Shown piece by piece: positions 46,240 through 63,876 of a stretch of DNA of 64,000 nt. This stretch comes from Lepidurus packardi (taxonomy: Eukaryota > Arthropoda > Branchiopoda > Notostraca > Triopsidae). The DNA lies in assembly GCA_023053545.1 (NCBI GenBank), contig JAKZAN010000002.1:7374790-7438789 (forward strand), in the 5' to 3' direction. Within the stretch, counting starts at the first letter, position 1. Each line of letters begins with the position of its first letter. The notes beneath the pieces were generated by a model. It was not told where the DNA came from. It made no database searches and saw nothing but the letters and a program-made list of their open reading frames with translations. Position numbers and translations under genes: made by a program.

Positions 46240-47855
46240 CTAAGTCCAGTACTGTTCCGACCCAACATCAACGCAATCTCTAAACCTTACAGTATGAGAA
46301 CTGCCATCATTAAAGGTGAATACCACTTGCTCAAAGTCTTCAATTCGCCTACCAAGATCAAAGGCAAAATAAGGGTTATCTCCCCTGTGCGACCCGGACT
46401 GTCCACCCAAGTAAGCTCCTGTAACAATCTTCCCCCCGGTGTTGAGGAGTCCAATGTTCCGGTAGTAAGGATTGTTAGTCCCAGTTCCAGGCTTATAGAA
46501 ACACTGGTTGTCACCACCGAGCAGTGGATTTTTGGTGGTCATTTGTACGCTGCATCTGGCCTGTCCAGGGGGTTGATTGTTTGTAGCAAGTGGCCTGAAA
46601 GGAAAATGTATTCATTGACGTTTTTTCATTGTGAAGCAACAATCAGTTAAAACAAAGGTGGGAGGAAAAACAACCCATTCTGTGTACAGAAAGGACTTTT
46701 GTATCATTATAGTAATAGGAGGATAAGGGAGGAGAGGGATTCATGAAATTATATTCTAAACGATTTTTGTATGGTATGTACATACCAAGTCGCCCTTGAA
46801 TAAAGATCCAGGCCTCCTCCATAGTTCGAATTGGTGATGATAATATTCATAGCACCATGTCCACAATCAATTTTTAAAACGTGCCCGCACAGATCGGGTT
46901 TGAACTTCAGGTGCCCAAGCTCCGCAATGTCACCAAGCGCAAATGGGTATGTTACTGCATAGTCCCTTGCTGGCAAAGCACAGGCATCGCCTCCTCCGTT
47001 GACATGCCGGGTGGCCAAAACGTTGTAAAGAATAGGTCCAACACCATTATCACCTGAATATTCCACTACGCCACAAACCATATTGTAATCACCTGTATAG
47101 AAAGCATCGTTCTTGGTTGCCCCTCCATTTTTCATCCAGCATGTTCCGCCATTGTACTTTGTCCAAGTGAAATGCGTGCAATCTCTGGTGGCAGCACATT
47201 TCCCACCACATTCACTTGATGACACTTGAGCATTAGTAAAATCACCACCGTGAAAGTCGCAAGCCGGGGCCCAATTGTTACCATTCCAGTTAATTGGAGT
47301 AGATTCAATTACGCCACAAACCATGCTGTAATCACCTGTATAGAAAGCATCGTTTTTGGTTGCCCATCCATTTTTCATCCAACAGGTTCCGCCATTGTAA
47401 CCTGTCCAAGTGAAATGCGTGCAATCGCTGGTGACAGCACATTTCCCACCACAATCACTTGATGACACCTGAGCATTAGTAAAATCACCACCGTTGAAGT
47501 CGCACGCCAGGGCCCAGTTGTTACCACCCCAGTTAATCCCCGAGGTAGCAGACAGTGCTTCTGTTTTGGCGGCTTTGAAACCTTTTGATGATGGATCAAT
47601 TTCCAATGGACTACTATTTGAGGAAATGTCTGTCTTCATCCAACAGGTTCCGCCATTGTCAGGTACCCAAGAGAAATGTGTACAACTAGAGGTTATATCA
47701 CATGTCTGGCCACAGTCATCTGGTGTCATCTTCCTGTTACCAGAACCGCCGTCATCGGTATCGGATACCATAGACCAACCCTTGCCAAACAAGGCTTCGC
47801 AATTTTCGAGAATTAATCCCACGAGAAGTAGCAAAGTCCCATGCTTGAGAAACAT
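46240..47855 (-). CDS. Secreted PAN/apple-repeat protein with C-terminal beta-barrel-like domain
   Basis: Two exons, 47855-46786 and 46594-46240, give 474 aa. The N-terminus MFLKHGTLLLLVGLILENCEA is a signal peptide. Three PAN/apple-like modules follow, at about residues 22-100, 107-187 and 188-270, each with the motif DCGxxC...CTHFxW...NGGTCWMK; modules 2 and 3 are almost identical and have an 81-residue period. The C-terminal part (from about residue 275) has LCGHVLKIDCGHG, ITNSNYGGGLDLYSRATW and, in exon 2, a Cys-containing Gly/Asn-rich region ending GSEQYWT. I read this as an expansin/RlpA-like double-psi barrel with moderate confidence. PAN modules bind protein or carbohydrate; a secreted lectin-like or wall-binding role is inference. 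The gene could be lineage-restricted or horizontally acquired. The phase-2 intron closes the frame exactly. Confidence 0.82.
47075..47560 (-). repeat. 243-bp tandem coding duplication inside the PAN gene
   Basis: Two adjacent 81-codon units (boundary near 47318) are very similar even at third positions, including long shared stretches such as tcacctgtatagaaagcatc, indicating recent duplication or gene conversion. Confidence 0.8.
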
Positions 47856-48334
47856 TCTCCCAAATTAGGTTCACCTATTAAAAAAGTAAATTTTATAATA
47901 TACGCTTTAAAAAGTAGCCGTATTCGCTAGTGGGTGAGTAAATATCTTCGTTCTTGCAACAGCTCGTTATTTATATGTCAGTAATCTGCTGATACAGTTC
48001 TTTGTAAATGCGAGCCTCGTGTAAGAAAAACGTGCGAAACCGGTGCTAGATCAGCAAGAACTTACGTGAGCATCTAACTTGCTTCGTCAAACGTCATGCG
48101 TAATTAAAAAGAGCAAATCATGCACAAAATTCGGAGAATATAAATTTTCAGCCGTGGTCAAATTGGCGGAAAACCTGTCTTCCTTGGTCTCCATCAGCTC
48201 AAACACAATACGGTCAGGCAAGTACTTTTTGGAGAAAGGTATGAAAAAAATAACAGCTACAATATTTCATTTTCCAGTTCCTTCTTTGTAAACTAGACAA
48301 AATTTGTTGTAACAAACTCCAAAATAAAGGTGTG

Positions 48335-61058: not shown

Positions 61059-63876
61059 TCAAGGAGCAATCTGGGGCGGGGTCGTGGGGGACGGCGAACT
61101 GTCCGAGCCAGACGTAGCCCATACTAAACAAAAAATAAAGAAATTAATAACTAAAAGAACGAATATCAAATAAATTCATAAACAAATAATACTACTAATA
61201 ATAATAATAATTTGAATAAACCCAGAAAGCCGTCCGCAATTCCTAACAATTAATAAGACATTTAATTTCTTTTCCTGGACTAATCTACGGAATGTTTTGC
61301 ATGAGATCAACGCCGTGAAAGCTGAGTTTTAGGTATGAAGCAAATCTTCCCCTATCAACACGATCAATTTCAAGTTTTAATTACGACACACGATTGAAGC
61401 TTAAAAACCGTTCTTTCAATTTCGTTTTCGCGAGATTCCGAAAACAGACCATTCCCACTGTTTTTTCCAGGGCTTTGTTGAAAAAGCAGCGGGAGAAATC
61501 TCTTTTCATTAAATGAAGTTTATTAGAAAAAATAAGAAGAAAATGGGAAAAGCAGAGGCGAAAAGTTTATGAACCTCGTTGTTATTGTTGGGAAGCTGAA
61601 CTTACGCTCAAATGAAGCCAAATTAAGAAATCAGATTCGTAAAATGGCCAAGAATTACAAATCATAAAATAAATGAACGAAACAACCAAAAATGGGAAAA
61701 TTAAGCGTGGTCGACAGGAGGTCACCCCTTGGGAAAGAAATTTAAACACACACGCTAAAGGGGAGGGGCAAAAAAAGCGTGGCACACGTGTCCGCAGCAG
61801 AGCACTCTCCAAAGGAAAAAAAAATAATATAAGAAAATAACAAAAAACACCCCGAATGGCACGCAGATAGTTAGCTGTAGGCCTTTTTGTTTTGGTGTGG
61901 AGTTGAACTTTTTTTTTTTTTTTTTTTTTTACATAAAGTTGACTGTCGTTGCAGAAATCCAGTAGCAGCAGGAAAATGACAAGAGAAGAAACGTTATACA
62001 ACCACGGAAACCATATTAGTACATGAAGTAAATTCAGTTCATGGAATGTAGACGCAACACTACAAATCCAGACAAAAGACGCAAACTAAGGGAACGTGAA
62101 AATAACTGAAGGACAAGAAAACTTGTCCCAACATAAAAATTATGCCTGGTTTCAAACCAAGCTACGTAAAGAAGCAGTGAACTGTAAAAATACATAAAAA
62201 TACACACAAAACTAATGTAAAACTACATCAAAATAAGGCCAATCTTGCAAAGAATTCATTAAAAATGAATCCAAGTTTAATCAAATAAATAGAAACTGTA
62301 AAACGATGATCAGTGTGATTGGACACTTACCGACAATGATGATCAAGATGATAAGCACAATGACGCCCATGATAATCATCATCTTCAAGTTCTTCCACCA
62401 GTATTTCCTCTTCAGCTTGCCGGCTTGCTGCTCAAATTGGGAGGCGCCTTGTTGCAAAGCATCTACGGAAAAACACAGGAGATTAAAACGGAATTCCCAA
62501 GTATAGGAGGCAAAAACTAAGGAACAGTCGTGCAGTTTAAATTGCGAATGAACTCAGAAAAAGTGTTTATGAAAAGCGAAGTCCAGAATCCAAACGAGAA
62601 CAGAAGTGTAAAACCCACATCAAAAGCCAACGGGACGAGACCGCGGACCCAGAGACCCAAGAACAGGGATCAACGCCAAAACCGAAAATAAATTAACCCA
62701 GTCGGATTGAAAAAGTACACGGATATGAAACGAAAGTCCACAAGGACACCAGAGAGAATGTTGATCACCTGCGCGGTCGTCCAGCTCCGATAGCTTTTGA
62801 TCGCGTTCCAACACCTTCTCCACGTTGGTACGCATAATATCCACCACCTGCAGAAAAAGAAGGAAGAAGAAGCCACAAAAAAATGTGTGTTAGCTTTCTA
62901 TGGACAACACACGTGCAAATTGCCATTTAACAATAAGGTTCAATTTAGACAGTTAAGATCCAAGACTGCAGACTGTTCCTCAATCCAGAACTATTGGATT
63001 CTGACATGTTTTGGGGGTTGAATAGAATACCTGCTCGGTCATCCAGCTCTGAGAGTTTTTGATCGCGTTCCAATACCTTTTCCACGTTGATTTTCATGAT
63101 ACCAACCACCTGACATAGGGGGCATTGCAATTTTTATGCAATTTTTAGTTAGGCTTCTTCAATATGCATTTTAGTTCGACTGGTTTCCAATTATTATTAG
63201 CAAATAGGAACCCTTAAAAAAGAAATGCGCTACGAATGGATTAAGTGCTTGTATACCTCGTCGACTTGAGCCTGGGTTTGCTGCAATCTTTTCGAGGCTG
63301 CTACTTGCTGTGGTGTTCTTCCACCTCCGACAACTGGAGCTCCATCTCCGCCTTCAGGGGCACCCAAACCTTGACCGCCAGACGACCTAGCAAATTACAT
63401 TAAAAAATTCGACCATTAGTGAACATTCAGCCCAAAGAAATCCAACGTTACATGTTGAATAACTAATGCACTTGGGATTATTCAGCCCGGACCCTACACT
63501 TGCTTCTAGGAAAAACTGACGGTCGTTTCCTTTACGGTAAACTTTTAGTCAGGGAAAGGTTAAAAGGAGTAAGTGAAAACTAACAAACATAAGATATTGA
63601 TGAGTGTCCCATGCGAGACTGTTCGAGAAAAGATTACCCTGGTTGGAATAAAACGGATAGCTGGCTACTATCTAGGCTAATGACACATCAGTAAAACGCC
63701 CGATAAAAGTGGGGGCGTCAGTCAATACACATACAACAGCCCAGAGCCTTGATCTTGTCTGGCTCATTTAACCTATTTGGGGCTGTTTTTAGACGCAAAA
63801 CTTAACTTAGATTAGTAAGTACTTAATATTTAATGAACTTCGAGCAAAATTACATAAGTTTGAGGTTTACTTACAT
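61059..63876 (-). CDS. nSyb: Synaptobrevin / VAMP2-type v-SNARE
   Basis: Exons in transcription order: 63876-63875 (the AT of the start codon), 63386-63257, then either 63109-63031 or 62847-62769, then 62462-62331 and 61123-61059; 135 aa with either middle exon. The protein has a Gly/Pro-rich N-terminus ([14 protein letters not shown]), the SNARE motif starting [11 protein letters not shown] with the zero-layer Arg in [15 protein letters not shown], and [20 protein letters not shown]. The juxtamembrane YWWKNLKMM follows, then one hydrophobic anchor and a short C-terminal tail ([17 protein letters not shown]). It is the vesicle R-SNARE that pairs with syntaxin and SNAP-25 for exocytosis. The short tail after the anchor resembles insect neuronal synaptobrevins, which also extend past the membrane. 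All phases close only if exactly one of the two 79-nt exons is used. Confidence 0.95.
61124..62330 (-). other. Synaptobrevin intron 4
   Basis: 1.2-kb intron with a 21-base T run near 61910-61930. An open frame at 61582-62001 has no splice or sequence support as an alternative 3' exon, though one cannot be excluded. Confidence 0.5.
62769..62847 (-). CDS. Synaptobrevin alternative exon 3b (SNARE motif)
   Basis: Encodes [18 protein letters not shown] then LSELDDRA, with a pyrimidine-rich CTGCAG acceptor and a GTGATC donor. It differs from 3a at 14 of 79 bases, 9 of them in synonymous changes; the amino-acid changes are Gly/Asp, Lys/Arg and Ile/Thr. 3b matches the consensus animal VAMP sequence (VVDIMR) better. 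Confidence 0.93.
63031..63109 (-). CDS. Synaptobrevin alternative exon 3a (SNARE motif)
   Basis: Encodes [18 protein letters not shown] then LSELDDRA, in phase 0 to phase 1, flanked by an AG acceptor (CAG at 63112-63110) and a GTATTC donor. Length 79 nt. Identical in length and frame to exon 3b. Confidence 0.93.
63387..63874 (-). other. Synaptobrevin intron 1, splitting the start codon
   Basis: Donor AT|GTAAGT at 63876-63871 (near-perfect consensus) and acceptor CTAG|G at 63390-63386. Splicing joins AT with G to create the initiator ATG. Confidence 0.8.

Follow-up and report, generated by a model that had tools for sequence, protein, structure and literature searches.

The closest described counterpart of the arrangement reported here is exon 5a/5b of vertebrate SNAP-25, a tandem, closely spaced and mutually exclusive pair in a protein of the same fusion complex, whose two versions differ at 9 of 39 residues (passages of PMC2581893). 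These passages date the duplication to early bony fish and state that none is described in Drosophila SNAP-25. As far as they go, the two cases also differ: SNAP-25 is not the vesicle R-SNARE, its alternative region spans the palmitoylated cysteines, and its splicing is demonstrated whereas that of the gene below is predicted. Exon pairs of this tandem, mutually exclusive kind are familiar, and SNAP-25 5a/5b is the direct precedent within the same complex.

Drosophila likewise has two brevins per animal, n-Syb and c-Syb, but these are the products of two genes rather than of two exons, and their differences are spread along the whole protein. In flies, n-Syb serves synaptic-vesicle fusion and c-Syb post-Golgi fusion (sections of PMC8377282). 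An alternatively spliced synaptobrevin gene is also on record, since variant J of Drosophila n-Syb has its C-terminus altered by an extra exon; the passages of PMC6025963 that deal with it do not mention variation in the SNARE motif.

Synaptobrevin belongs to the best conserved of all synaptic proteins, and each gene is commonly regarded as having one fixed SNARE motif. In the window (the whole stretch of 64,000 nt analysed here), we found a synaptobrevin gene in which a stretch of this motif is encoded twice, by neighboring exons. It is likely that these are mutually exclusive exons, derived from an old tandem duplication in a single-copy arthropod gene, and that they provide two R-SNAREs, their use in mRNA being predicted from the sequence. 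The first-pass annotation had considered such an arrangement undescribed in synaptobrevin genes. In agreement with it, no synaptobrevin with duplicated SNARE-motif exons appeared in the open-licence PMC listings and openings of abstracts. Neither synaptobrevin nor VAMP is mentioned in the main text of two papers on tandem duplicated exons (PMC9741552 and PMC9013439), and a genome-wide prediction in the fly (PMC3228551) mentions neither synaptobrevin nor Syb. Duplicated SNARE-motif exons in synaptobrevin have apparently not been reported previously.

Structure of the synaptobrevin gene

A complete synaptobrevin gene could be recognized at 63876-61929 on the minus strand from the sequence, its reading frames and its splice signals. 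Its parts, in order of transcription, are the following:

63875-63876, minus strand: 3' end of exon 1, the AT of a split start codon (AT/GTAAGT), placed by inference rather than from cDNA
63257-63386, minus strand: exon 2, 130 nt, the N-terminus and the first part of the SNARE motif, as far as VAMP2 E41 (from sequence and translation)
63031-63109, minus strand: exon 3a, 79 nt, 26 residues (from sequence, translation and comparison of the exons)
62769-62847, minus strand: exon 3b, 79 nt, 26 residues, closer than 3a to vertebrate VAMP2 (from sequence and PDB comparison)
62331-62462, minus strand: exon 4, 132 nt, remainder of the SNARE motif, juxtamembrane region and most of the membrane anchor (from sequence and protein search)
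61929-61942, minus strand: coding part of exon 5, the end of the anchor, VNFM and the stop, followed by the 3' UTR (from the frame and the acceptor AG)

Exons 1 and 5 were thus placed by frame and splice signals, not by cDNA. Joined to exon 2, the AT of exon 1 translates as MSSGG..., so that the start codon would be interrupted by intron 1, and the donor of exon 1 has 6 of the 7 consensus positions. In a protein search of the genome, exon 2 was matched as residues 2-46. The predicted product has 118 residues with either version of exon 3, and the Pfam Synaptobrevin family recognizes both isoforms well above its cut-off of 26.4 bits (117.6 bits with 3b, 115.2 bits with 3a). In the PDB, the 3b isoform matches VAMP2 best. 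The arginine of the central layer (VAMP2 R56) is encoded by both exon 3a and exon 3b, and the C-terminal membrane anchor aligns with VAMP2 up to residue 117. With this arginine layer, a C-terminal anchor and a short N-terminus without a longin domain (the N-terminus depending on the split start), the predicted protein is a brevin-type R-SNARE. The upstream neighbor on the same strand resembles, by eye only, a 26S proteasome regulatory subunit (PSMD1/RPN2).

Divergence and constraint of the exon pair

Exons 3a and 3b are both 79 nt long, lie 183 nt apart with AG/GT flanks, are entered in phase 0 and left in phase 1, and encode residues equivalent to VAMP2 42-67. Two tandem 79-nt exons for the same 26 residues had been annotated in the first pass, and their coordinates and phases, together with the end of exon 2 at 63257 and the start of exon 4 at 62462, were confirmed. 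The pair is adjacent, of like length, homologous, in the same phase and bounded by the same types of splice site, the properties by which candidate mutually exclusive exons are defined in passages of PMC3228551.

The two exons differ at 14 nucleotides across 12 codons (82% identity). Nine codons differ synonymously by single changes, and the other 5 nt make up three replacements, Gly/Asp at VAMP2 44 (GGT/GAT), Lys/Arg at 47 (AAA/CGT) and Ile/Thr at 48 (ATC/ACC), each given as 3a/3b. A whole-genome DNA search with exon 3b found exon 3a at E = 4.7e-15. Similarity stops at the exon edges: the 40 nt outside each of them are 25% identical in an ungapped comparison, against 82% inside, and the introns around the duplicated exons are, by this comparison, diverged beyond recognition.

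By the Nei-Gojobori method, dS between 3a and 3b is 0.96 and dN 0.078 (omega 0.08). When the same 14 substitutions were placed at random in exon 3b 20,000 times, the mean number of residue changes was 8.5 and a stop codon arose in 40% of the placements; three or fewer residue changes, three being the number observed, occurred in only 0.05% (P = 0.0005). The earlier claim that 9 of the 14 differences are synonymous and that both exons are constrained is thus upheld with figures. The dS and dN values, the random placements and the unrelated flanks together point to an old duplication with both exons under protein-level selection, its age and conservation being judged from one genome.

These figures bear directly on the suspicion that 3a is an unused duplicate, dead or on its way to being so, and that the protein is made from 3b alone. 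Such a suspicion could draw on the weaker acceptor tract of 3a and on its greater distance from VAMP2. However, with dS close to 1, about eight residue changes would be expected in a copy free of constraint, and 40% of the random placements created a stop; 3a has three changes, no stop, the correct length and both splice dinucleotides. An inert copy of the exon is very unlikely on the sequence, and we accordingly give little credence to synthesis from 3b alone. Relatives of the protein were also sought by protein scans in viral and prokaryote contig collections, where 24 and 504 pattern stretches, respectively, were retrieved and none was confirmed.

Reading frame and splice sites

By the predicted frame, each intact protein contains one exon 3. 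A single version keeps the frame, as the first-pass annotation had argued when it called exclusivity built in, and inclusion of both or of neither shifts it and leads to a stop codon inside exon 4, at 101 and 81 nt, respectively, upstream of the exon 4/5 junction. An mRNA with both exons, like one with neither, would be useless because of this stop. Frame incompatibility explains why the wrong products are useless; it says nothing about how the splicing machinery chooses. Under the mammalian rule, stops at such a distance are expected to trigger nonsense-mediated decay.

That both frame-breaking products stop so far ahead of the exon 4/5 junction could also be taken to mean that the pair is mainly an on/off switch, in which double inclusion or skipping would yield unproductive mRNA wherever synaptobrevin is not wanted, the protein difference being incidental. 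We find this improbable, since skipping would require one exon only, and selection at the protein level on both copies would be left unexplained. Alternative use of 3a and 3b as two protein-coding versions is the reading that we prefer.

The same annotation had described the splice sites as good. The AG and GT dinucleotides are indeed present in both exons, but the donors, CAG/GTATTC in 3a and CAG/GTGATC in 3b, have 4 and 5 of the 7 consensus positions (the donor consensus being that of general knowledge) and neither has G at +5, and the polypyrimidine tract of 3a is weak, with a pyrimidine fraction upstream of the acceptor of 0.60 versus 0.95 for 3b. The splice sites are best described, as far as consensus positions can tell, as adequate and not uniformly good. 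The simplest expectation would be that 3b is the default and that 3a is favored under regulation.

Complementary arms in the introns

In other clusters of mutually exclusive exons, competing or bidirectional RNA pairing takes place between complementary arms in the introns that flank the alternative exons (described in parts of PMC6071210). We found complementary arms of a comparable kind here, although they are statistically notable only around 3b and come from one genome. They are, with their partners:

62971-62986, minus strand: 16-nt arm in the intron between 3a and 3b, complementary (with G-U pairs) to 62514-62529; would loop out 3b
62514-62529, minus strand: partner of the 16-nt arm, in the intron between 3b and exon 4
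62994-63004, minus strand: 11-nt arm, the second one, able to pair with 62583-62593; this helix also spans exon 3b and crosses the first
62583-62593, minus strand: partner of the 11-nt arm
63152-63160, minus strand: 9-nt arm upstream of 3a, pairing with 62866-62874 in the polypyrimidine tract of 3b; would loop out 3a; not significant

For the introns flanking 3b (i3 and i4), the best helix was equaled by 2 of 400 control placements, in which the same geometry was set at random positions of the window, and the sum of the two best helices by 1 of 400. Arms looping out 3a were no better than the controls (91 of 400 for the best i2-i3 helix, and 123 of 400). Shuffling gave a similar picture for contiguous helices (300 shuffles): for i3-i4, P was 0.003 for the best helix and 0 for the sum of the two best, and there was no significant excess for i2-i3 (0.080 and 0.077) or i2-i4 (0.51 and 0.54). 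Full-length duplex energies gave P = 0.012 for i3-i4 (500 shuffles) and no signal for i2-i3 (0.94, 1,000 shuffles) or i2-i4 (0.35, 500 shuffles). With three intron pairs compared, the signal for i3-i4 is modest, and the energy scale behind the arms is a crude one. Because its two helices cross, they would coexist only as a pseudoknot, and the two assembled copies of the gene (see below) are so nearly identical that they are uninformative on compensatory change in the arms.

Pairing around 3b would loop this exon out and bring the donor of 3a near exon 4. A speculative mechanism would combine the two features, with the strong acceptor of 3b setting the default and intron pairing looping out 3b. 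The arms around 3b could thus act as splicing regulators, which is a lead from the sequence, not a result.

Residue differences between the two isoforms

Each mRNA would carry either 3a, with Gly-Lys-Ile, or 3b, with Asp-Arg-Thr, at positions equivalent to VAMP2 44, 47 and 48, the proteins being otherwise identical. The layer positions of this stretch, which we take to be VAMP2 42, 46, 49, 53, 56, 60, 63 and 67, are all unchanged between 3a and 3b. The first-pass annotation had noted that the three changes avoid the layers, and this stands; its proposal that they tune the isoforms for binding partners carries less weight, because 31% of random triples among the 26 residues also avoid the eight layer positions, and surface positions alone give no indication of partner tuning. 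Residues 44 and 47 lie about 150 degrees from the core and residue 48 about 110, and 220 of 2,600 random triples (8.5%) are equally distant from the core face or more so, or 220 of 816 when only non-layer triples are counted. The clustering on the outer face is suggestive only, neither residue statistic being significant.

This segment also stands out as a binding site. In VAMPs, the N-terminal half of the SNARE motif is bound by the ANTH domain of CALM, and V43 and M46 of VAMP2 are required for endocytosis and for ANTH binding (passages of PMC3267021). Both residues are kept in 3a and in 3b, the differences between the two exons are bracketed by V43 and M46 or stand beside them, and ANTH-domain genes are present in the assembly. 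In the PDB, yeast Snc1 reads TVGIMRDN where VAMP2 reads VVDIMRVN. Judging by this example, Gly at position 44 is tolerated in nature. Fly n-Syb has VVDIMRTN, like exon 3b, and fly c-Syb has VVGIMRVN, closer to exon 3a; the nematode SNB-1 carries the 3a-like VVGIM.

The boldest reading of these likenesses is that a single brevin gene would divide, by exon choice, the synaptic-vesicle and general-secretion roles that flies assign to two genes, the choice being set by alternative intron pairing, as an independent counterpart of SNAP-25a/b; this is an analogy that we put forward tentatively, as possible rather than probable. The three surface changes may matter little, because overexpressed c-Syb can rescue n-Syb in flies (sections of PMC8377282). 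The same result, the small number of substitutions and the share of random triples that spare the core would all suit isoforms that are both used and equivalent, the duplication being neutral and kept because either exon suffices. This seems unlikely to us: two copies that have stayed under constraint for so long are less easily accounted for unless they differ or are regulated in some way, and a mid-helix exchange of Asp for Gly, like that of Thr for Ile, would not be silent by nature. A spliced choice maintained within the motif would be a natural experiment on which outward residues count in vesicle sorting and release, since the other residues do not vary. It would also allow one to ask whether duplicating an exon can stand in for duplicating a gene when neuronal and general exocytosis are separated.

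Copy number and other SNARE genes

A whole-genome DNA search found the exons twice, 241 kb apart on the same contig (C2). In the parts compared, which lie outside 7249954-7400382 and the left border of the overlap in the first contig, the alignment between the copies consists of four long pieces with 98.7-99.97% identity; one piece, of 4.8 kb, is only 98.7% identical. In the first copy, the match extends to a 100-N gap (C2:7488570-7488669) and ends there (7725352 with 7488569), and the 2 kb just past the gap (from 7488789) are 100% identical to the sequence that starts at 7247953. A 2-kb probe from beyond the second copy (7736999) is single, barring two short partial matches (72% and 83%). The duplicated stretch would be about 240 kb, from about 7247834 to 7488569 and from 7488670 to 7725352, the window included, its extent being partly extrapolated. 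About 4.9 kb of the first copy (C2:7459767-7464674) is absent from the second, an insertion or deletion and perhaps a mobile element.

This pattern probably reflects two overlapping contigs, of two haplotypes, placed end to end and left unmerged, so that gene counts in the region are doubled. A second gene 241 kb away was considered and is unlikely, the match being bounded by the gap and the probe beyond the second copy being single; a true segmental duplication, which the 98.7% piece and the 4.9-kb difference would favor, retains a small likelihood. The assembled copies agree fully in exons 2, 3a, 3b and 4 and in the coding part of exon 5. The 2.5 kb compared contain 2 substitutions, of which one is at 63166 in intron 2 and the other lies farther upstream, outside the exons mapped; 59 more differences in the alignment come from unequal ends of the two stretches. 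On this comparison, the true number of genes is most likely one.

An assembly that seems to hold an unmerged overlap of about 240 kb, with the gene twice, might raise the question of whether the exon pair itself is an artefact, a concern already voiced in the first pass. The pair occurs in both assembled copies and is therefore not a local assembly error. Moreover, 3a and 3b are 18% different and have unrelated flanks, which collapse or overlap errors do not yield, and we regard an artefactual origin of the pair as practically negligible.

A Pfam search of the genome for R-SNAREs gave 18 matches from 20 candidates scored, six of these matches being exons of the present gene, counted in both assembled copies. 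Five further matches lie on large contigs and resemble, by eye, Sec22 (C4), VAMP7 (C3, two exons), Ykt6 (C2:8211239) and tomosyn (C2:8279561); the last two are not brevins on their translations. The remaining seven, on small contigs (C171, C209, C213, C266 and C296), probably stem from a different organism; C171 carries the closest of them, a weakly similar frame with 35% identity to the query (E 8.8e-12 in the protein search). On C213, C266 and C296 the R-SNARE-like frames have in-frame TAA or TAG where glutamate fits, a code that we take to be that of peritrich ciliates, and an associated organism or contamination is the likely source of these three contigs. Judging by these ciliate-like genes, the host may be aquatic. 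Pfam and protein searches of the assembly found no second VAMP1/2/3-like gene.

The Pfam SNARE search, which would miss duplicated exons outside domains, gave 12 matches in all, with no tandem duplication in other SNARE genes among those on large contigs and one close pair on a small contig (C126). The SNAP-25 family has a single match in the genome.

Other features of the window and assembly

Elsewhere in the window, an open frame at 46752-47864 on the minus strand contains three PAN-domain stretches (Pfam PAN_4), a C-terminal part that is expansin-like by eye and tandem 235-nt units about 91% alike. A weak DUF745 match (35.8 bits, cut-off 33.3) lies at 93-578, also on the minus strand. In the assembly, many COX1 matches with in-frame TGA are found on the large contigs C1, C2, C4, C5 and C6; in-frame TGA, read as Trp, is expected of nuclear copies of mitochondrial DNA. 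A flatworm spliced-leader core was looked for and had 0 matches, and a flatworm host was therefore dropped. Chitin_bind_4 domains of cuticle proteins are numerous and clustered at C3:420943-2792385; in the genome search, all 150 of the 266 candidates that were scored proved to be matches (at least 150 in total), as expected of an arthropod host.
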